DNA of 31,367 nt from a virus. The DNA is taken from the IMG/VR virus record IMGVR_UViG_3300050014_000841, positions 1 to 31,367 of that record; one strand, 5' to 3'. The notes beneath the pieces were generated by a model. That model made no database searches. It was not told the DNA's origin and worked only from the letters and a program-made list of their open reading frames with translations. Shown here piece after piece: positions 2,022 through 28,063 of this stretch. Each line of letters begins with the position of its first letter. The stretch's first letter is position 1. The position numbers and the translations under genes are program-made.

Positions 2022-3653
2022 CTATTCTCCGGGTACCCCCGGTAACACCTCGATAAACTCATTCACGCCGCTGGCGCTCTCCGTCTGCGTCGCCTGCAAC
2101 TTGCTCTCGTCCCAGGTCAGCGTTGTCGCCTTGCCGCCGAAGAGGACGATCTGCTCCTGCGTGAACCGCAGCGGGACGAATACCCGGCCCCACTGATCGA
2201 CCAGGATCGGGGTCACTGCTGGGTTGCTGTCGATGGGGACAGCCACGCCGTTCATGACGACCTGACTCTCGCCACAGGTGAAGATGGCGGTGGGCTCTGT
2301 GGCCGGCGGCGTCGGTACCGGGGGCGGGGTCGGTGTAGGCGCAGGGGTAGGCGCCGGTACCGGGGTAGTGTTCAGCGCCGCCAGGTCAGCATCCAGCGCG
2401 GTCAGGTCGAGGCCTTCAGGGGACAGCCCGCTCTTCAGGAATCCCTCACTGAGCAGCGCCCAGGCCTCCTCGCAGTATGCCTTGAAGAAAGCCAGGGTCA
2501 TCTTCCAGAGAACGCCCCAGGTCACTATGAGGATGTAAGTACCATCGAAGCCGACAATGGTAACGTCGTGGCCTTCTCCGGTGTCCTTGGCCCCGGGTAC
2601 AACATCAAACGGTTGGTTTGCGTTGAACTGCGGGATCATGGTATTGGGCACGTTGATACCGATCTCCACTGCGCTGAAGATGTACGCTGCTTCCAGGGCT
2701 TCATCGACATCCAAATTCAGCGCCAGGTAAGCATCGATCTTATGACGCTTCCCGCCGGCGTCGATCATGCCCGTCTGCTGGCGGTATTTCAGCGACACCC
2801 TGATCTCGGTGCCCTGGTCGCTGTCCGGGTTGTCCGGATTATAGCCTGTCTCTGCGCTGTAGTCGGCTAGTGCGTTGGCATCGGTGAAGACGGCCTCCGT
2901 CGATCCTTCGGCGGACCACAACTCTTCCTCATGGTCCGCTGCCGCCTGTACGCAATCGCCTACGGTATCGTTACCGAGCATCCCCCAGGCGTTGGATCCG
3001 ATCAGGCTGTTATGCCCGAAGCCAGCCGCGGGATATGCCGGCAGGGTCGTACGATACTTGGCCAACGGCAGGTCCCGTTCGTCAATCGTGTGCTTCTTGC
3101 GTCCGAACTTCCGCAGTGACGATGTCCGCGACACCGTCACCTTCGACAACTGCAATGCGCTGAGCCCTGTCTGAGCGATCAGGGCTGTCACGAAGGCCGG
3201 GCTGGCCATGTTGGCGAGGCTCGGCACATTCGTCCAGAGGCCCGCGGTCACGGCTGCAACTGGCGTCTGCGTCAGCCACGCGTCGGTGAGGTCATCGACT
3301 AGGCCGGCAAGGACACCCCACACGCCATTTGCCCAGGCGACGCGATCGACATCGGTAGAACCGGCCTTCCAATACGACCGGCTGAATTCCAGCACGGTAG
3401 CCGGGCTGATCGGCAGAGAACAGTTTTGCACAAATGCGGCAGTACCGGCCAATTGGTTGGCGAAGCCTTTGTATTCGGGCTTCATTGCGCCGGGGAAATA
3501 ATCGAAGCCGAAGTACCAGTCCCGGCCAGCACCCTTTGTGCCGCATCCTGTCTCCCAATAACCGATGGATGCCAGGAACATGGCATATGTGGGGCTAGCC
3601 ACCTTAATGGCTTCCCAATCCGCTAAAGTCATTCCTGTTTGCGATAAATTCAT
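2022..3653 (-). CDS. Modular phage lysin: lysozyme-like N-terminus, papain-like Cys peptidase, CuAMO_N-like stalk domain
   Basis: This 543-aa putative cell-wall hydrolase has three parts. Residues 1-130 resemble a lysozyme-like fold, with a candidate acidic residue E34 in GYWETGCGTKGAG. Residues 200-405 resemble a C1/C39-like cysteine peptidase: Cys234 in GNDTVGDCVQAAADH, His362 in GEGHDVTIVGFD, then YILIVTWG and a terminal FFKAYCEEAWALL. A Pro/Thr linker (430-455) leads to residues 456-530, which resemble the copper amine oxidase N-terminal domain (VVMNGVAVPIDS, VFVPLRFTQE, LTWDESK), common on clostridial surface proteins. There is no signal peptide, so export would need a holin. An ideal AAGGAGGT lies 4 nt upstream of the start, overlapping the preceding stop. 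The domain fold of the N-terminus is the least certain part. Confidence 0.75.
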   Translation of the reverse strand: MNLSQTGMTLADWEAIKVASPTYAMFLASIGYWETGCGTKGAGRDWYFGFDYFPGAMKPEYKGFANQLAGTAAFVQNCSLPISPATVLEFSRSYWKAGSTDVDRVAWANGVWGVLAGLVDDLTDAWLTQTPVAAVTAGLWTNVPSLANMASPAFVTALIAQTGLSALQLSKVTVSRTSSLRKFGRKKHTIDERDLPLAKYRTTLPAYPAAGFGHNSLIGSNAWGMLGNDTVGDCVQAAADHEEELWSAEGSTEAVFTDANALADYSAETGYNPDNPDSDQGTEIRVSLKYRQQTGMIDAGGKRHKIDAYLALNLDVDEALEAAYIFSAVEIGINVPNTMIPQFNANQPFDVVPGAKDTGEGHDVTIVGFDGTYILIVTWGVLWKMTLAFFKAYCEEAWALLSEGFLKSGLSPEGLDLTALDADLAALNTTPVPAPTPAPTPTPPPVPTPPATEPTAIFTCGESQVVMNGVAVPIDSNPAVTPILVDQWGRVFVPLRFTQEQIVLFGGKATTLTWDESKLQATQTESASGVNEFIEVLPGVPGE

Positions 3654-3663
3654 AATTACCTCC

Positions 3664-4077
3664 TTATTTTCTTGCCCGAATCTCCTTGAACAGGTCGTCG
3701 AGAGCCTTCAGACAATCCTTCCAGTTGCCCTTTTCCTCGACCGTGTGTTTCAACACTTCTTCGACCATATCCCACCTCTGAGCGTTACTCAGGATCTGGA
3801 TAGTGGTGCAGGTCTGCTGCATGATTGGCTGCAACTCCTTCAGGACCTGCTTCAGTTCCTGGTTCGAACTGGTTTGTCCATCCACGGATCGCACGAACAG
3901 CTCTATCAGTTTGTCGTTATGCGAGTCCCGCGCTGCCTGCTGACCGTCCTGCCGTTCCTCCTGGGGCGTGACTTTCCCGCTGATGGTGAACAGCTTGACG
4001 ATGTTAACGCTGACATACGCTATCGCAGCTACAGCGATACCAGCCATTCCGTAATCAGCTACGTTTAAAGGAGTCAT
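3664..4077 (-). CDS. Single-TM phage protein with long cytoplasmic helix (holin-like)
   Basis: The protein is 137 aa from ATG 4077, which has GAGGTGG about 6 nt upstream; an upstream GTG would add three residues but has no spacing for a ribosome site. Residues 8-30 (YGMAGIAVAAIAYVSVNIVKLF) form one membrane helix. The rest is charged and predicted helical (QELKQVLKELQPIMQQTC, then WDMVEEVLKHTVEEKGNW). The gene sits directly before the lysin, so a role in lysis (holin, antiholin or spanin-like linker) is plausible. No family signature is visible. Confidence 0.6.
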   Translation of the reverse strand: MTPLNVADYGMAGIAVAAIAYVSVNIVKLFTISGKVTPQEERQDGQQAARDSHNDKLIELFVRSVDGQTSSNQELKQVLKELQPIMQQTCTTIQILSNAQRWDMVEEVLKHTVEEKGNWKDCLKALDDLFKEIRARK

Positions 4078-4095
4078 TTCTTCCACCTCACCCCC

Positions 4096-5442
4096 CTAGA
4101 TCAGTTTCATCCGCTCCATTCGATGGAACCTGGCCAGCGGATGTCCGGGCTCCTCTTCACGGTCGAAGTCATCCCTGGCCCACTTCGTTGGCATGGAGAA
4201 CTGGAAGAACCGCTTCCGTAGCTCTGCCATGGCACCCTCCGGATTCTCCCCCCTGGCCGTCAGGATGCCGGTCGCCTCGTCGCCGGTGGTCAGGATGTTG
4301 CCGCCCTTCTTATGCACGTCCCACAGCCAGACGTCATCCTTGATCTCGTCCGGGAAGGATACCATCTGGTCCGGAGTCTTATCGTCGTTGAACACCCGCA
4401 GACTGCATGAATATACAGACTCATGCATAAAGATACGCTCCATCACATCGCCCTTGTACTTGCCGTCCAGGTAACTGCTCAGGAAGTCGCCCACATCGAT
4501 GGTCAGCAGCGCAAGCATGGAATAGAAGGCGTTGTAGGCGAATCTGCAGCCGCACACCTCCAGGGCATACATCTTGTCCTCTTTCGGTTCATAGATGACG
4601 CTCATATCCAGCAGTCCGGTGCCGATCTCCTTGGCCGCAAACTTATCAAAGGGGCCGTTGACGCGCTCCCGGAGCGGATGGTCGAGGGGGATAGTCCACA
4701 GCAGGTCGTAGCTGCAGCCGGTCTGCACCTCGCACATCTCGTTATATTTTTTCTTGGCCTCGATATCGACGTTGGCCAGGACCGGCGTGCCGTTGCTATA
4801 CCAGGTCTCCACGGCAAACTCTGTGCCGTCGACACGCTCCTGCAGCAGGCAGGCCTCCTTGTCAATCTCCTTGGACTCGGCCTCGATCTTGGCGATCAGC
4901 TCGTCGTTGGACTCGTTGGCCACCTGGGTGACCACAGCCGTGTTGTCGCTCTTGAGCACGTAGAGGCTCTTGTCCTGCGCCTTCTCCAGGAACTGGATAG
5001 CCTTCTGCGATGAACCCTTGCCGAACTTCTGCTGGGCCGGCAGGTCCATCCCCAGGGACTTGAGCAGCTTCAGGGTGCCGTCGCGCTCGGTCTCCAGCGT
5101 GTAACCAACTTCGCAGCCGCCCAGGACCTTCATGCCGCGCCGCCGCAGAGCATCGCCGAACTGCCAGCCGTATATCTGATCAAAGACCACGTAATCCTTC
5201 CGGCTGATGCGAGGCATGGCCTCAGAAGCCCACATTTTGTCTATGAGTCCCTTGCCGTTGGCCAGCAGGTATTCCGTCTTATCGGCGTTCTTCTTCTGCT
5301 GCTTGGCATCCTTGGGGGGCGTGAACTTGCCCTCACGCTCCTCCGGGCGGATCAAAACGAGGGTCACATCGTAACCCTCGTACTTCAGCCGCATTGCGAG
5401 AGGCAGGCCGCTGTGATCGGCGGAGAATATCCAGAACTTCAT
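4096..5442 (-). CDS. PurD-like (GARS-type) ATP-grasp ligase
   Basis: This 448-aa protein has the domain order of phosphoribosylamine-glycine ligase. There is an N-terminal Rossmann-like region (MKFWIFSADHSGLPLAMRLK, then YDVTLVLI), a linker region, and an ATP-grasp core with a candidate ATP-binding Lys in YVLKSD (about 164). QERVDGTEFAVE (201-212) follows, aligning with the EEFLxGxE motif, then YALEVCGCRF (292-301), aligning with LEFNxRFG. The C-terminal domain (DVHKKGGNILTTGDEATGIL) resembles the HAGTK..vTxGGRVLxV part of PurD. The metal-binding Asn of LEFN is not conserved, so substrate and activity are probably altered. It lies inside the late operon between the ejection protein and the lysis genes, with AGGAGG 5 nt from ATG. 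Phages rarely carry a lone PurD homologue; an amide or peptide bond-forming role on a nucleotide or peptide is inferred only from the family. Confidence 0.7.
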   Translation of the reverse strand: MKFWIFSADHSGLPLAMRLKYEGYDVTLVLIRPEEREGKFTPPKDAKQQKKNADKTEYLLANGKGLIDKMWASEAMPRISRKDYVVFDQIYGWQFGDALRRRGMKVLGGCEVGYTLETERDGTLKLLKSLGMDLPAQQKFGKGSSQKAIQFLEKAQDKSLYVLKSDNTAVVTQVANESNDELIAKIEAESKEIDKEACLLQERVDGTEFAVETWYSNGTPVLANVDIEAKKKYNEMCEVQTGCSYDLLWTIPLDHPLRERVNGPFDKFAAKEIGTGLLDMSVIYEPKEDKMYALEVCGCRFAYNAFYSMLALLTIDVGDFLSSYLDGKYKGDVMERIFMHESVYSCSLRVFNDDKTPDQMVSFPDEIKDDVWLWDVHKKGGNILTTGDEATGILTARGENPEGAMAELRKRFFQFSMPTKWARDDFDREEEPGHPLARFHRMERMKLI

Positions 5443-5451
5443 AAGCGCCTC

Positions 5452-8400
5452 CTAGTATCCTGGCCATGGGTATTGCCCTATCCCAGGGATATTTTGAATA
5501 GACCCGTATCTGGCCTGAATATAGCGAATAGCGGCCACGGCGTTATCCACCGGATTATTAATGTCGTTCATGCCTGAAACTGCATAGGCAAGGAATGTGG
5601 CTGGCTTCGTCTGCATTAATCCCGTTGCGCCAGAGTTGTTGCGCGCTGTCGGGTCGCCAGCCGATTCCGCCTGTGCCAGCCACGCTAAATCCGGTCCCCA
5701 GCCTTGTGGAACGCCCGTGACCTGCATCGCTTGCTGGATTGTGCCGCCGTTGCCGCCTGAGCGTGATGACGACATGGTCGCTCTGGTATAGCTAACCAGG
5801 TCGCTGCGAAGCATTGTTTTCTGCTGCGAGGTCAGCCCTTTCATGAATTGCATCCTCTGGGTCTTGGACATAGAGAGAAACTGCTGTCCTACAGGCGACA
5901 TGCTTTCTTTGGCAATCTTCTCCCGCGCTGTCTTGACAGCATCCGTCTTCTCCGTTGCCGTTCTCCATATCCCGGCCTTGGCGCCCTGCTGGAGGGCGAG
6001 GCCCAGTGCTTTCGTATTACCGCTATCGAGAGCCTTCGCCAGAGCGCTCTCCGCTGCAGACTCGGCTTGGGTCTTCTGTGCCTTCTGAGCCTCGCCCTGG
6101 GCATATGCCTGTTCCTGAGAAGCGTATGCCTGCGGCGAGGCTAACTCTGCCTGACCTGCTTGTATTGCCTGCTGCCAGATGTCCTGCTGCTGCTGGCGGG
6201 CCTGGTCCGATGTCAGGCTCTTGTCCTTGGCGATTGCATCGGCCTGGGTAGCCGCGGTGTCGATTGTCTTCGTCAGTTCCGGCAGATAATACTTGGATTT
6301 GACGCCTTTGGCGGTGAAGTCCGCCGATGCCTGATCTAATTGCGTCCGCAAATTGTAGAAGTTGGTTTCTATGTCGTTGCTGTAGAAAGGATCAGCGATC
6401 ACGTTTCGCTGCAAGGTCTGTCCGGGCGTTGTCGCTTGGCTAAAAATTCCCGCGTAAGACTGTATCAGGTAGTCGATCTTCTTGGGAGACCAATTCATTT
6501 TCTTGCCGATCTCCTTGGCGATCCAGGTGTCATTCTGATCATACTGTTGACCCGGAGACAGCGCGGAGAGCTTGCTGGAAACAATCGGCGCCCCAGTGTA
6601 AGATTTGTTATATGCTGCCTGATAGAACGGAGCGACGTTGAGCTGCGTATCAGCCATCATAAAGTATTGAGCGAATGCCCCGCCCCAGTTGGTCAGATCT
6701 TTGGCGTTCTTGGAAGCGATAGCCTCCAGGATATGCTCTGGCGCCGTAGAGAACAACACGCCCCAGCCCCGGGGCTTGACAATCTTAATGAACGTCTTGC
6801 CGCCATCGGCGGGGGTGGGGATACAGTAATAATGATCCTTGATGTACTGGCTCAGCTTCTGGTAATTCGCGTTGCCGTGATTTTTCAGCCATAAAGCGAT
6901 TGTCGGCAGCGTCAGCATGACAGCCGCCTTGCCGATAGCGTTCACCGGGTCATCCTTCAGCGTACGGGCGACCTTGTCAACCCCCTGAATTGCCACGTTG
7001 AGGAAAGGGAGCACGGCATCCGCCTGCTTGCCGATATTCCCCGATTTTCCATAGTTCACGCTCACATCATTGGCCTCGTAGAGAGCGCGCTGCCTGCCGG
7101 CCGGGGTGTCGTCGATCGCCCGCCACCTCTTGAACTCTGCCAAGCGCGGAGCTGTGGCCATGACGCTGTCGATGTTCTTGATGAAGCCCCCGGCTTTGTT
7201 CACCACGTGCGAGGCGGCCTTGAGAGGCTTCTCGTACCACTCACCGGGTACGATGTCATCCCTGACCCTCGCCAGGCTGCTGTCCGATCCGCCACTCGGA
7301 AGGCTTCGACCGCCGCCCACCGCCCTATAGGTGTCGTATCTCTCGTTGTCTTTCCCCATGACCTGGCCCCGGAACACATCCACCGCGGCCTGCATGATGT
7401 CGAAGGGTCCGCGGATATAATCGACCGGGTTGAATGCCGACAACGTCTTAGAAGTGATCAGCGCTGCCGGGATGTCGTAGGCCGGATGCTTAATAAGCAT
7501 AAAGTAAGGGTTATCGGAAACGGTCACCTGCTTGAATACGCTTGTGATCCTCGCCGCGGCCTTGAAGAAGTCGCCCATATACGCGGGCCTCAGGTTTCGC
7601 ATCGCTTTCAGATATTCGGGATCATCAACCTTCATCGCGATTGATTTACCATTGACGCGGGCGACCACCGTGTTTCCATGCTTGGCGACAATGGGTTGCC
7701 CATTCTGGTCTTTGGCATCCTCCGGAAGCGGCGCCGCAACTTCGTCCATCGCTGTTTCGGGGTTGGCAAGCTTCTCCTGCGAATCCTTTGCCAACCCCCC
7801 TTCGTCGCTCTCATCGATCCTGTACCAGCCCGAATTAGCCCATTCTGGATAGACCTGCGCCGTCCGTAGCATGGCCGCGTAGACGCTGTTCTGCCTGACT
7901 TTGTTTACAATATGATTCGCATCGTCCACGGCGGCATCAATAAAAGAATATGTGTTTCTGGTCGAACCACGTCCCCTATTGCCAATCGTATAGCTGCTAC
8001 GTTCGGCGGGTGCCTGTTCGACCTGCCTGTGGATGTAATGCGGGAATTGCTCATGCCAGGCGTCGAGCACCTTTTGATTCAGGTATCCGGTATCCCCGAG
8101 CCATGACTGGGTAAGCTGCTGCTGCCACTGATCCCAGTCTTTCCCGATCTGCTCGAAGTAGGGATGCTGCGCCAACTGCTTGGCTTCGATGGCTCTCGCT
8201 ACATCCGCGCCCTCCGCGTCCGGAGTTATTCCTTTGCTCGCAGGATAGACCTGGCGCCCCTTCTCCAGCCAGGACGGAGCATGTCTGGCCTTCATATACT
8301 CTTCCAGATCATCAATATCCCCCGGCTTGACAGCGGAGATCACGTCATTTAGAGACTTGCCGATGGTATTCCCGTTGGGGTCGACCAGGTTTTTGCTGAT

Positions 8401-10674
8401 GATCGTGTTTATGATGTTGTCCGTGCCGACCAGGTTATAAGCTACCAGCGCCACATTATCGTTGTCGGACAGTTTCATCCCGGGCGCTTCTCTCCCAATG
8501 TAGGTGTTGAGCGACTTCATCGCCTGCCCGATCCTGGCCTTGGTATCGACGGTAGCCGTATACGCTTTCCTGATGCGTTCACCCGCGGTGACGGATTTGG
8601 GATCTGTTTTGTTCTTGATCGTGTCCCTGGTATCCGGCGGGTTGGGATTGTCCTTCAGCGCCTGCTGCCGCCTGCTCACTTCATCCTGCGCCTTCAGCTT
8701 CTCTTGCTGCGCCAGGGCTAATTTTTGCGCCCGGACATTCTCGTCCATCGTCGGCTCAGCCTCAGGAGGCGTCTCTTTCGTCGGCAGCGCCAGCGATTGC
8801 CTGAGCAGGTCCTTGGGATTGGCCGCGCCGACGCCACCGATCATACTTTTGATAGATCCTCGCGGAGCTACCTGATCAGGCGCGTTTGCCGGGTTAAATC
8901 CCATCTTGCCGAGGCTGACCGGCTCTGCGGCAGGCGGAGTACCCACCTGGGCTGTCGGGTCACCCGGCACGTTTTGACTTGCTCCCCTTGCCTTCATGTC
9001 TGCTGCCCATTGCTGGGCATTCTGACGTGGCGCGGGCGCTCTGTCATCCTGACTTTGTTGTACCGTCTGCGATGCTGCATTTTGCACAACGTTATGAGCG
9101 TGGCCACTATCGATTATGGCCTTCAGCTTTGCAATAACTTCATTATTTTGCTGTAACGTGGGGTTCGCGTACGTTCCTTGGTCTATGGCCTTTAGTTTCG
9201 AGATGACGTCTGTTTCCGGAGCCATGCTCGAAGCTTGGACACCGCCTATTCTTGCTGGCTGTTCATCACCGCTGAGGATAGCTTTCAGCGTCAAGATCAG
9301 TTTACTGTCAGGGACCTGCGCTCCTCCGGAATTTACCTTCGGCGGCAAGTCCTCAGCCATCTTGCCGGCGACTATACCAAGGGCGCCGTCCGCATCGTTG
9401 TTTGCAACCGCAGTGCTCAGCGCCTCTTTTTCGGCAGGTTCCAGGTCATCGATGACCGACTTGATATTCTCCGTGACGGATGTCTGTAATGAATCCGCCT
9501 GCACCGGGGCTTGCTCTGCTCCTGCGCCTCCCTGTTGCGTCTGCTGCAATTCTGTAGGGGTTGCTTCTCCGTCCGGCCTAGCAAATGCAGACTGGCCTCC
9601 CAGAGCGGTCATCACCAACTCTACCGCGCCCATCGTCAGTCCCTGGTTGACCAGCGCCTTGCCGAAGTTCTGCTTCTCCTGCGCGGTCATAGCCAGGTAA
9701 CCGGCTGCAGTTCCGGCCGCACCGCCGACAACGCCACCGACCGGGCGCGAGAGGATGGCCGGCAGATTCAACGCGTTGCCAACTTTGCCGACCAGGCCCG
9801 CGCCGGTCTCCATGCCTGCACCCAGGGCTTCATTCTGCAATCCCTGGCGTGATGTGGGGTCAATACCCTGCAACACGGATGCCCCTCCACCCTGAGCCAC
9901 GCCGCGCCCGGCCATGCCTGCTATCTGCTGCCACAGAGGAAGATTCCCCATGTCCTCAGCGCCCAGGCCTGCGGTATCAGCGCCAACACCAGGAGCGCCG
10001 GCGCCGGCAGCTACCCAGGGAAGCAGGCCACCAACGACACGGGCCGCGCCGGAGGCGAGCGGGCTGTTTTGCACCATCTGCGCCCCTGCGTTGTCGGGCG
10101 CCCCCTGCGCTAGTTTCTGATAATATAATTGCTGCGCTGGAGATAGTCCGGGAGCGTTCTTCGCCTGTTTTGCATATGCCTGCGTCTCTGCGTCCGTGAC
10201 GCCTCCGGCGCTCCCCGCTACAATGTCGTTGAACTTGCCAACAGCGCCCAGGGCATTCTTCCACCAGGGGGTTGACGGCTTGGCGGTCGCTCTCGCTAAT
10301 TGCAGCGCTGGCGTATTTGATGCCTGCAGATTGCCCATACTCGGCGCCATGGACGTCGGGACTAATTTTTGTCCTTGCGGCGTCATGGCTCCGCTGGCGA
10401 GATTATAATCCGCTCCGCCCCATAGTCCAGCGACATTTCGGATCTGATTCGCACGGACATGGAGCGCCTGCGCCGAAGCAACATCCCCTTGCGCCATTGC
10501 CTGGTTCCACTGCTGCCCAAGAGATGATAGCGACGCCTGATTCCCTTGCGATAGGGTTGGAGGCGCTATGACGTCCTCAGCGTTCTTCCACCACGGCTTT
10601 TTAGCAACGGCTGCCGCAAGAGAAGATGCCTGAGCTTGTTGAGCTTGCACAGCCATCAGGCTGTCTGGCATCAT
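5452..10674 (-). CDS. Giant virion ejection protein with C-terminal lytic transglycosylase
   Basis: At 1740 aa this is the largest gene of the window. The last 100 residues are an SLT/LysM-type transglycosylase-like domain: catalytic Glu near 1670 in AQAESAGDPTARNNSGATGL, followed by MQTKPATF and AVAAIRYIQARYG. Residues about 1040-1420 resemble the LPD38 region of large polyvalent phage proteins (NPYFMLIKHPAYD, then YEANDVSVNYGKSGNIGKQ). Gly/Ala-rich hydrophobic stretches near 205-235 and 310-335 could insert into a membrane. Residues 1480-1620 are Ala/Gln-rich helical. Such proteins are packed in podovirus heads and ejected to open a path through the wall. GGAGTG lies 8 nt before ATG, and the stop overlaps the ribosome site of the ATP-grasp gene. 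Confidence 0.82.
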   Translation of the reverse strand: MMPDSLMAVQAQQAQASSLAAAVAKKPWWKNAEDVIAPPTLSQGNQASLSSLGQQWNQAMAQGDVASAQALHVRANQIRNVAGLWGGADYNLASGAMTPQGQKLVPTSMAPSMGNLQASNTPALQLARATAKPSTPWWKNALGAVGKFNDIVAGSAGGVTDAETQAYAKQAKNAPGLSPAQQLYYQKLAQGAPDNAGAQMVQNSPLASGAARVVGGLLPWVAAGAGAPGVGADTAGLGAEDMGNLPLWQQIAGMAGRGVAQGGGASVLQGIDPTSRQGLQNEALGAGMETGAGLVGKVGNALNLPAILSRPVGGVVGGAAGTAAGYLAMTAQEKQNFGKALVNQGLTMGAVELVMTALGGQSAFARPDGEATPTELQQTQQGGAGAEQAPVQADSLQTSVTENIKSVIDDLEPAEKEALSTAVANNDADGALGIVAGKMAEDLPPKVNSGGAQVPDSKLILTLKAILSGDEQPARIGGVQASSMAPETDVISKLKAIDQGTYANPTLQQNNEVIAKLKAIIDSGHAHNVVQNAASQTVQQSQDDRAPAPRQNAQQWAADMKARGASQNVPGDPTAQVGTPPAAEPVSLGKMGFNPANAPDQVAPRGSIKSMIGGVGAANPKDLLRQSLALPTKETPPEAEPTMDENVRAQKLALAQQEKLKAQDEVSRRQQALKDNPNPPDTRDTIKNKTDPKSVTAGERIRKAYTATVDTKARIGQAMKSLNTYIGREAPGMKLSDNDNVALVAYNLVGTDNIINTIISKNLVDPNGNTIGKSLNDVISAVKPGDIDDLEEYMKARHAPSWLEKGRQVYPASKGITPDAEGADVARAIEAKQLAQHPYFEQIGKDWDQWQQQLTQSWLGDTGYLNQKVLDAWHEQFPHYIHRQVEQAPAERSSYTIGNRGRGSTRNTYSFIDAAVDDANHIVNKVRQNSVYAAMLRTAQVYPEWANSGWYRIDESDEGGLAKDSQEKLANPETAMDEVAAPLPEDAKDQNGQPIVAKHGNTVVARVNGKSIAMKVDDPEYLKAMRNLRPAYMGDFFKAAARITSVFKQVTVSDNPYFMLIKHPAYDIPAALITSKTLSAFNPVDYIRGPFDIMQAAVDVFRGQVMGKDNERYDTYRAVGGGRSLPSGGSDSSLARVRDDIVPGEWYEKPLKAASHVVNKAGGFIKNIDSVMATAPRLAEFKRWRAIDDTPAGRQRALYEANDVSVNYGKSGNIGKQADAVLPFLNVAIQGVDKVARTLKDDPVNAIGKAAVMLTLPTIALWLKNHGNANYQKLSQYIKDHYYCIPTPADGGKTFIKIVKPRGWGVLFSTAPEHILEAIASKNAKDLTNWGGAFAQYFMMADTQLNVAPFYQAAYNKSYTGAPIVSSKLSALSPGQQYDQNDTWIAKEIGKKMNWSPKKIDYLIQSYAGIFSQATTPGQTLQRNVIADPFYSNDIETNFYNLRTQLDQASADFTAKGVKSKYYLPELTKTIDTAATQADAIAKDKSLTSDQARQQQQDIWQQAIQAGQAELASPQAYASQEQAYAQGEAQKAQKTQAESAAESALAKALDSGNTKALGLALQQGAKAGIWRTATEKTDAVKTAREKIAKESMSPVGQQFLSMSKTQRMQFMKGLTSQQKTMLRSDLVSYTRATMSSSRSGGNGGTIQQAMQVTGVPQGWGPDLAWLAQAESAGDPTARNNSGATGLMQTKPATFLAYAVSGMNDINNPVDNAVAAIRYIQARYGSIQNIPGIGQYPWPGY

Positions 10675-12324: not shown

Positions 12325-13746
12325 CTAGAATTTCGGCGTCACGTACACATCCTTGTCCAGGCCGTAGATGTCCACCCTGCCGGTCCCTGCAAACTTGAGC
12401 CGGTAGAAGTAGGACGGAGTAAGCACTCCCGGGGAGACGAATATTTTGCTTGTCTGAGGTAGCGTCTGCGCCGAGACCGAGCCGATCAGCGTCCAGTCAT
12501 TCCCGTCATTCATGTCCCGCTCCCGGTTCGACAGGTAGACATTCAGCGATGCCCCAGGCCATACCTCAGCCGTGAGGTAGGCGTCGACGAGCTGCTTCTC
12601 CTGGGCTAAGCTACCGTCAGAATACGGCTTGGTCTCGTATAGCCAGGAGAGCGTGTTGCTGTTGGTCGCTTTATCGATCTGGTAGACTATCCCGCCGGCG
12701 TCGCCGATGTAGACGCCTTTCAAGGTGCTGGCGGCATCCCGGTACATCACGTTGGCCTTGACATCAGCGTACTGCTGCCAGGGCCCCCACCAGTTATTGT
12801 TCCAGGTGTCGTAGGCAAAAAGCAGGTTCTCGCCAAGAGATATGTAATAGAATCGGCTGTCAGCGCAGGCAGAGACATAAGGCAACGGACTGTTGATAAT
12901 GACGTTGGGCAGGTAATTCTTGATCGGGTCGCTGATCCGTTCCGGGTCGCCGCCGTTCCAGCGGTAGACCCCGTCTACGCCTAGCCAATAGAGATACCCG
13001 CCGATTTCCGCTATCGTCGCGTTAGAGGCACAGCCAATGCCGTAGAAGCGGTCGATGATCGTATAGTCGCTGGCCGGGCCGTCTCCCCATACCTCGTGAT
13101 AGGAAGTCCACTTGAAGACGACCATCGTGCCAGTTGTCAGAGAGGCGATCCCGTTATTCGGCTCTCCGCTGGGCGCCTCAATCCAGTTCTGATACTGACC
13201 GAGATCCCCGGTCGCTACCCAATTTCCGGTGTTGCGCCAGCTACACCCCTGAAACATATTCGGGTCGTTAGGCGTCCCCGTTATCCATAACCGGTTGGCG
13301 TTGGCGGTTATGTACGCACCCAATGGGGCTGTCGCTGCCGCTACCTGTGTCGGAGCGCCGCTATTTGTAAAAAGATATAGACCGTCCAGGGCAGAGGAGA
13401 AGTAGAAGCCGCCCATGAATGAGCAAAAGCTGAACGATGTTCCTAGAAAAATCTGGCCACCTTGCTGTCCGTTGCTGTAATAGAATCTGCCACCCGCTAT
13501 GACGGCAAACTGCCCTTTATAATCGGCAACCATCAAAATGGAGCCGGCATATGCATTCTGCACCACAGCCGGGTAACAGGGCGTCAGCACCGGCAGCATA
13601 TACGGCGCGATGTTGAGCATAAGCGGGCTCTGATTGTCCGCGATCAAGGGAGGCGGCGTGATCCCGTTATTGACACCCCCGCCGAAGTCTATTGTGGCCA
13701 CTCGCTGTAGGCCGCTTTTCTTGTCGGGATTACTCCAGATTGCCAT
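12325..13746 (-). CDS. Tail hub / nozzle protein (P22 gp10-like in size and position)
   Basis: This 473-aa beta-rich protein contains many repeated Trp/Tyr/Gly strands (GRFYYSNGQQGG, YLYWLGVDGVYRWNGGDPER, RFYYISLGENLLFAYDTWNN), suggesting a propeller-like fold. Its length and its place between adaptor/tailspike and ejection genes match the tail stabilisation/nozzle proteins of short-tailed phages; that assignment is inference. The first ~24 residues (MAIWSNPDKKSGLQR...DFGGG) are repeated at the start of the 43-aa protein at 14372-14503. GAGGAG lies 5 nt before ATG. The moron at 13788-14375 is inserted directly before this gene. Confidence 0.6.
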   Translation of the reverse strand: MAIWSNPDKKSGLQRVATIDFGGGVNNGITPPPLIADNQSPLMLNIAPYMLPVLTPCYPAVVQNAYAGSILMVADYKGQFAVIAGGRFYYSNGQQGGQIFLGTSFSFCSFMGGFYFSSALDGLYLFTNSGAPTQVAAATAPLGAYITANANRLWITGTPNDPNMFQGCSWRNTGNWVATGDLGQYQNWIEAPSGEPNNGIASLTTGTMVVFKWTSYHEVWGDGPASDYTIIDRFYGIGCASNATIAEIGGYLYWLGVDGVYRWNGGDPERISDPIKNYLPNVIINSPLPYVSACADSRFYYISLGENLLFAYDTWNNNWWGPWQQYADVKANVMYRDAASTLKGVYIGDAGGIVYQIDKATNSNTLSWLYETKPYSDGSLAQEKQLVDAYLTAEVWPGASLNVYLSNRERDMNDGNDWTLIGSVSAQTLPQTSKIFVSPGVLTPSYFYRLKFAGTGRVDIYGLDKDVYVTPKF

Positions 13747-13787
13747 TTTTACTCCTCAGTGTTATACCTATAATGGAGGTGGATACC

Positions 13788-14375
13788 ATGGATCCTTTTA
13801 ACTACATTATTTATACACCAGAAGATTTCAAACAGTTTTATCCCGATGCAACCTTAGGCCCGGCAAGTTCTATTCAAAACCCTGGTTACATCAAGATTTG
13901 TTCTAACGTCACGATACATCATCATACTTCTATCAGCGTTACCCCTGACTACAATGGCAAGAAATATAATCCATCAATTATAATCGGGGAAAATACGATC
14001 ATCGGACCATATAACTCAATCGCTTCTATCAATCGTTTGGAAATAGGCAAATATGTTCTGTTTGGCCCTCATGTGCATATTAATGATCATTCTCATGGTT
14101 ACGAGGACATCACAAAGCCCATCATGTGTCAACCTGCATTCTCGAAAGGCCCGGTAATAATTGAAGATAATTGCTGGTTCGGGTTAGGTTGCCATATCTT
14201 ATCAGGTGTTACAATCGGGAAAAACTCCGCGATCGGAGCCAATTCTGTTGTTACCTCGGATATACCACCATTTTGTGTAGTTGCAGGGGTGCCTGCTAAA
14301 GTGATCAAACAGTACAATCCCAAAACAGGCAAATGGGAGCGCAAGAAGTCATTCCGCATATTTTGGCCGTTCTAA
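13788..14375 (+). CDS. Hexapeptide-repeat O-acetyltransferase (moron)
   Basis: This 195-aa left-handed beta-helix acyltransferase is of the WbbJ/NodL/maltose-acetyltransferase type. It shows hexapeptide turns (IIIGENTIIGPYNSIA, then PVIIEDNCWFGLGCHI, LSGVTIGKNSAIGANSVVTS), the His-containing loop HINDHSHGYEDI with the likely catalytic His, and the closing VVAGVPAKVIKQY. Such enzymes transfer acetyl from acetyl-CoA to sugars of capsule, wall or lipopolysaccharide. The start at 13788 is chosen because GGAGGTGG lies 6 nt upstream. It is on the opposite strand to the late operon, clearly more AT-rich than its neighbours, and inserted between two genes with related N-termini. A role in lysogenic conversion or receptor masking is inferred. 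Confidence 0.88.
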   Translation: MDPFNYIIYTPEDFKQFYPDATLGPASSIQNPGYIKICSNVTIHHHTSISVTPDYNGKKYNPSIIIGENTIIGPYNSIASINRLEIGKYVLFGPHVHINDHSHGYEDITKPIMCQPAFSKGPVIIEDNCWFGLGCHILSGVTIGKNSAIGANSVVTSDIPPFCVVAGVPAKVIKQYNPKTGKWERKKSFRIFWPF

Positions 14376-16994: not shown

Positions 16995-17010
16995 TATTTC
17001 ACGTGAAATA
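16995..17010. promoter_or_regulatory. parS/NBS-like palindrome, copy 2
   Basis: TATTTCACGTGAAATA, identical to copies 1 and 3, lies 2 nt after the stop of the repeat protein and directly before the hairpin at 16974-16994. On the minus strand TATAAAA immediately precedes it. Confidence 0.7.
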
Positions 17011-25184: not shown

Positions 25185-25200
25185 TATTTCACGTGAAATA
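25185..25200. promoter_or_regulatory. parS/NBS-like palindrome, copy 3
   Basis: TATTTCACGTGAAATA again lies 2 nt after a stop codon (that of the 33-aa membrane peptide) and just before the terminator-like hairpin at the portal start. It is identical to copies 1 and 2. Confidence 0.7.
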
Positions 25201-28047: not shown

Positions 28048-28063
28048 TATTTCACGTAAAATA
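28048..28063. promoter_or_regulatory. parS/NBS-like palindrome, copy 4 (one mismatch)
   Basis: TATTTCACGTAAAATA differs from the other three copies at one position. It lies between the tandem terminators and the ribosome site of terS, unlike the others, which precede a hairpin. Confidence 0.55.

Follow-up and report, generated by a model that had tools for sequence, protein, structure and literature searches.

A divergent PurD-like ATP-grasp protein encoded beside a large internal-virion-type gene in a putative phage late operon

Why a virus that infects bacteria should carry a gene resembling purD, placed among genes for the virion, is the question raised by this locus. The window analysed here is a whole IMG/VR virus record of 31,367 bases, and neither purM nor purF was found anywhere in it, in agreement with the original observation that no other purine genes are nearby. 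The ORF (4096..5442, minus strand) is intact and encodes a 448-aa protein, recognised as PurD-like ATP-grasp from the ORF, AlphaFold, Foldseek and a family HMM.

On the minus strand, the gene order runs from a terminase-type set through portal, capsid and head-closure/stabilisation-type genes to a gene for a 1740-aa protein and then the PurD-like ORF. The head-closure/stabilisation-type protein (12325..13746, minus; phrog_3287 and phrog_578 (Hc3)) marks a podovirus late operon. The 1740-aa internal virion/polyvalent protein (5452..10674, minus) matches Pfam LPD38 (E 1.6e-27), has a C-terminal SLT transglycosylase domain (E 8e-12) and is probably injected into the host. Its gene ends 9 nt before the start of the PurD-like ORF, and a perfect Shine-Dalgarno sequence, AGGAGG (5448..5453, minus), lies 5 nt before the PurD-like ATG and overlaps the upstream stop codon. 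Located 3′ of the PurD-like ORF is a gene for a small, 140-aa protein with an N-terminal hydrophobic segment (3664..4086, minus; weak phrog_6664), which by position may be a holin or spanin-like protein. It is followed by a gene for a 543-aa protein (2022..3653, minus; phrog_19005, of unknown function, E 8e-31, with a weak Cu_amine_oxidN1 match at the C-terminus), a probable cell-wall hydrolase and, by position, endolysin; its C-terminal domain is stalk-like and it is possibly a new endolysin type. We infer that the operon is late from its position, downstream of and co-stranded with the terminase, portal, capsid, head-closure and internal virion genes. This neighbourhood favours a link between the PurD-like gene and the large internal/ejection protein over a link to lysis.

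Several other features of the window were recorded. At its left end a tRNA-Gly (gcc) gene (1436-1504, minus) adjoins an integrase gene (171-1358, plus); there may be an attachment site here, in which case the record would be a provirus edge. Encoded on the other strand within the late tail region is a hexapeptide-repeat acyltransferase (13692-14375, plus; Pfam Hexapep E 3e-15), which has the look of cargo that modifies the cell surface. In the closest phage relative, G003 (terminase 68%), the acyltransferase at a similar location (33962-34966) is of another, OafA-like type. A 16-bp palindrome, TATTTCACGTGAAATA, is present at 1648-1663, 16995-17010, 25185-25200 and 28048-28063 (three perfect copies and one with a single mismatch, against 0.03 copies expected by chance), and three of the four copies precede minus-strand genes by no more than about 35 bp. 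It agrees at 14/16 positions with the bacterial ParB/parS consensus, TGTTTCACGTGAAACA, and its exact core was found in 0/278 fetched loci. The palindromes may be host-ParB sites, a phage centromere or repressor operators.

By sequence, the PurD-like protein shows a single domain, Pfam ATP-grasp_4, whose 25.9 bits fall short of the cut-off of 27; with the NCBIfam purD model it reaches 21.1 bits where 288 are required. There was no significant PHROG match, and no relatives came from single-sequence searches of the viral, phage and PDB sets, which by themselves would have made the protein look like a singleton. The AlphaFold model made with 43 relatives (pLDDT 84, pTM 0.87) is disordered at residues 232-242, and its top 15 PDB matches in Foldseek were all PurD/GARS (E 1e-22 to 2.5e-19, TM 0.62-0.67); a whole-length PurD fold is thus predicted. 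With the window protein left out of both HMMs, it scored 97.4 bits (E 4e-32) against the family HMM described below and 10.5 bits against a canonical PurD HMM. Chance is excluded, because the Foldseek match to PurD reaches E 1e-22 and the family HMM gave E 4e-32 with no window sequence in the model. The full PurD-type domain order that had been claimed can therefore be seen in the profile alignment to relatives and in the predicted structure, but not by sequence alone, where ATP-grasp_4 stays under its cut-off.

The proposed check of a predicted structure against PurD gave a clear match, but with an incomplete active site. The PurD motifs LEFNxRFGDPE and GPNTGGMG are absent, and the protein has LEVCGCRFAYNA and EVQTGCSYD. 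As originally reported, LEVCGCRF (residues 294-301; 4540..4563, minus) replaces LEFNxRF, and it aligns to IEFNCRF of E. coli PurD, with the metal-site residue E295 kept and the N/T position changed to C297. In the alignment EVQTGCSYD (residues 238-246; 4705..4731, minus) is the eroded equivalent of the GPNTGGMG/GPNTGEMGT loop, and it overlaps the disordered part of the model.

Relatives were found with a profile seeded by two plasmid-borne orphan PurD-like proteins (Halarchaeum and Roseomonas), which detected 14 viral contigs at first and then no fewer than 392 contigs in IMG/VR, plus at least 520 contigs from genomes; these counts from collection scans are lower bounds, and the IMG/VR contigs are predicted viruses that are not all verified. 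The family signature is EHKK..GPNTGEMGT..GxIDxN..LEFTxR, and it is intact in nearly all relatives examined, the window protein being the exception. Among 114 non-redundant PurD-like proteins, the metal-site Asn of PurD (E. coli N288) is nearly always T, and the charged changes relative to PurD are, in E. coli numbering, K105 to R, D214 to E, G229 to E and Y271 to D. The D of GxIDxN is presumably a metal ligand of the kind found in D-Ala-D-Ala ligase. In the tree, nine canonical PurDs form their own branch (3.9 changes per column, SH-aLRT 100), and 51/54 viral rows fall in one group (SH-aLRT 90). The PurD-like hits listed from INPHARED were mostly contaminating bacterial true PurD, and were used solely as canonical references. 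One viral relative (L017:5139-6725) has a HAD/kinase-phosphatase-like domain joined to its C-terminal end, with phrog_1238 and phrog_415 matches at 430-516, a possible clue to the substrate.

The distribution of the family bears on whether the gene is a true GAR synthetase, carried as an auxiliary purine-synthesis gene for nucleotide supply. Among 20 cell genomes with a PurD-like gene, some of them incomplete metagenome bins, 13 contain in addition a true PurD that scores above the cut-off, and the remaining seven have neither PurD nor PurM. Since the relatives either coexist with a real PurD or occur where both PurD and PurM are absent, the role of the family appears not to be in purine synthesis. 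Cellular gene neighbourhoods gave no consistent partner (109 neighbours, including alpha/beta hydrolase 6, SET 4 and M20 peptidase 3). In 24 phage records that bear a relative, no protein scored as high as the purD cut-off and a genuine purM was absent throughout. The PurD fold and the reading given to viral GART/PurD genes in a marine survey (PMC11360552) speak for purine supply. Against this, the score is far under the purD cut-off, both motifs are lost, purM and purF are absent from the record and the gene position is late; the original argument that late timing disfavours nucleotide supply agrees with the synteny seen in many phages. Purine supply is the least likely of the rival explanations and hardly credible. 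The idea of a repurposed ligase, by comparison, fares well: the fold is that of PurD, the active site is altered, purine genes are missing, and relatives sit beside true PurD or in cells lacking purM. A modified nucleotide, a virion peptide and a cell-wall precursor at lysis, the targets originally suggested for it, are putative substrates.

PurD-type enzymes use phosphoribosyl substrates, and this was counted in favour of a ligase that modifies nucleotides or DNA, for instance by decorating a base with an amino acid. However, no gene for base modification stood out among the tested ORFs of the window, and the PurD-like gene is in the late structural block and not the replication block, which makes such a role very improbable.

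Whether the window protein is itself a typical member of the orphan family was examined by score, residues and phylogeny. Complete relatives score about 370-660 bits on the family profile, as opposed to 97 for the window protein. At 14 positions that discriminate the family from PurD it has the family state at five, the PurD state at one and neither at eight. It has lost the invariant LEFT threonine of the family (LEVC), the GEMGT loop (CSYD; C243-Y245) and part of the glycine-rich ATP loop, while the family-specific charged residues R120, E228 and D279 are all present. Its end branch in the tree is 5.85 long and its placement is without support, and a rescan starting from the window protein turned up no closer relative, with matches no higher than about 30%, over short stretches. 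Having lost the LEFT threonine and the GEMG loop, the window protein is an outlier allied to the orphan family and the most divergent relative found, and not a clean member.

The losses are not evenly spread, as 11/12 invariant charged positions are kept compared with 30/80 other conserved positions (Fisher p 9e-4). The residues kept include K164, R300 and the metal-site carboxylates D279 and E295, so that an ATP-grasp fold with its conserved Lys and metal carboxylates is present in the model. Such retention of charged residues would be expected if the chemistry were under selection. It speaks for chemistry that has been kept and a substrate site that has been rebuilt, although activity is not assured because the threonine of LEFT, the GEMG loop and some of the ATP loop are lost. 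These same losses could instead mean a catalytically dead PurD fold with a structural or chaperone role in the internal/ejection apparatus. The missing GPNTGGMG loop, glycine-rich loop and third metal ligand, the long end branch and the coupling to the large internal virion gene would all fit this, but the charged residues listed above are retained, and the signature is intact in nearly all other relatives examined. A dead fold is considered unlikely, if still to be taken seriously.

In the phages, PurD-like genes sit in podovirus-type late operons, with the head-closure gene Hc3 about five genes upstream. The upstream neighbour is on the same strand and at least 400 aa long in 36/53 non-redundant phage loci, compared with 35/149 comparable genes of the same loci (p 1e-8, an optimistic value as the loci are related, mostly from one clade, and the synteny counts are not independent). 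The two genes overlap by 4 nt or 1 nt in 28 phage loci. The layout of the window matches that of these loci, with the PurD-like gene next in line after the large internal-virion-type gene. A single phage example was found in GenBank, MW202796, whose record carries no annotation for the PurD-like gene. Its capsid protein is distantly homologous to that of the window (25.6%, E 2e-23), and together with the shared layout this suggests that the position of the PurD-like gene may be inherited. A shared ejection protein across the phages is not proposed, as hhalign of the 1740-aa protein against the family's upstream proteins did not support homology; among those upstream proteins there was a single, weak LPD38 match (E 8e-4). 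A GNAT-type acetyltransferase (phrog_1249; for example L071:2081-2545) is a repeated neighbour in phage late operons, about four genes 5′ of the PurD-like gene, and its cluster spans 26 viral loci.

This synteny also has to be weighed against the gene being moron cargo of a temperate phage, that is, a PurD-like metabolic ligase of host type that benefits the lysogen and is placed at the end of the late operon. The integrase and tRNA genes of the window and the abundance of cellular relatives are consistent with cargo. So is phage G003, which lacks the PurD-like gene and has other genes in that slot, a KilA-C-like antirepressor among them; the gene is thus dispensable in the G003 lineage, a point against the reading favoured below. 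Against cargo stand the recurrence directly 3′ of large late genes across many phages, often with start-stop overlap, and the shared late strand and strong ribosome binding site in the window, and this explanation is quite unlikely.

From the observed fold, relatedness, non-purine distribution, gene position and retained invariant charged residues, we infer the activity, C-N ligation and substrate of the window protein as follows. The gene product would be a PurD-fold ATP-grasp enzyme derived from the orphan PurD-like family, which is distinct from true GAR synthetase. Most likely it would still bind Mg-ATP, activate a carboxylate as an acyl phosphate and join it to an amine. It would be made late, in translational step with the large, probably ejected internal protein encoded just upstream. 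Because of this proximity and translational coupling, the likeliest target would be a protein or peptide made or delivered with the late module, either the ejection protein or a host target, and not a purine intermediate. In our judgement there is an even chance that the protein is an ATP-dependent carboxylate-amine ligase, produced along with the ejection proteins and having its target in the virion or the host. A broader proposal is more tentative and would probably not hold in full: that a widespread and essentially unannotated PurD-derived ligase family works with podovirus-type DNA-ejection proteins, covalently modifies an ejected protein or host target and is misread in surveys as purine-synthesis auxiliary metabolic genes, with the window encoding a rapidly evolving variant that has a rebuilt active site.

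PurD-type hits in viromes, such as GART, are reported as auxiliary metabolic genes of purine synthesis (PMC11360552). The orphan family resembles PurD to annotation tools, but it differs in its metal-site and substrate-loop signature, and it occurs in late operons beside internal-virion-type genes and also in cells without the purine pathway. A residue test of LEFT/GEMG/GxID versus LEFN/GGMG/GxLY could guard against misannotation. If the family does modify virion or host proteins, this would add a new enzymatic function to the phage ejection module.

Among known systems, GAR synthetase PurD (EC 6.3.4.13) shares with the window protein its overall fold, domain order and conserved ATP-grasp core (K164, E208, E295 and R300) plus the RxD of the C-domain. 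The window protein differs in having LEVC for LEFN, in the absence of GDPE and GPNTGGMG, in the changes K105 to R, D214 to E and Y271 to D, and in its lack of purine pathway context. The GART genes that the marine survey interprets as purine synthesis (PMC11360552) are candidate members of the orphan family. The amidoligase/COOH-NH2 ligase/GATase sets of phiEco32- and LUZ24-like podoviruses are likewise phage-borne predicted amide-forming ligases, but of different families; no Amidoligase_2 or COOH-NH2_lig Pfam match was found in the window at E up to 1, and the ligase set of UFV-P2 is in the early block and not beside an ejection protein (PMC3890496). The archaeal and bacterial orphan PurD-like proteins give the nearest profile (97 bits) and share the charged signature R120, E228 and D279 and the absence of GDPE, but they keep the full GPNTGEMGT and LEFTxR, both lost in the window protein. 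A 2011 curation described two haloarchaeal extras, Hlac_1553 and rrnAC0307, as "not actual glycinamide ribonucleotide synthetases" (PMC3261824). These two are putative members of the orphan family, of which the Halarchaeum relative (L015) is a member. The PurD-like late proteins of phages (IMG/VR, MW202796) are only 18-24% identical to the window protein, which is far more divergent, and their upstream proteins have no significant profile match to the 1740-aa protein. They do have in common with it the fold, a podovirus-type gene set and the late position directly after a large internal-virion-type gene.
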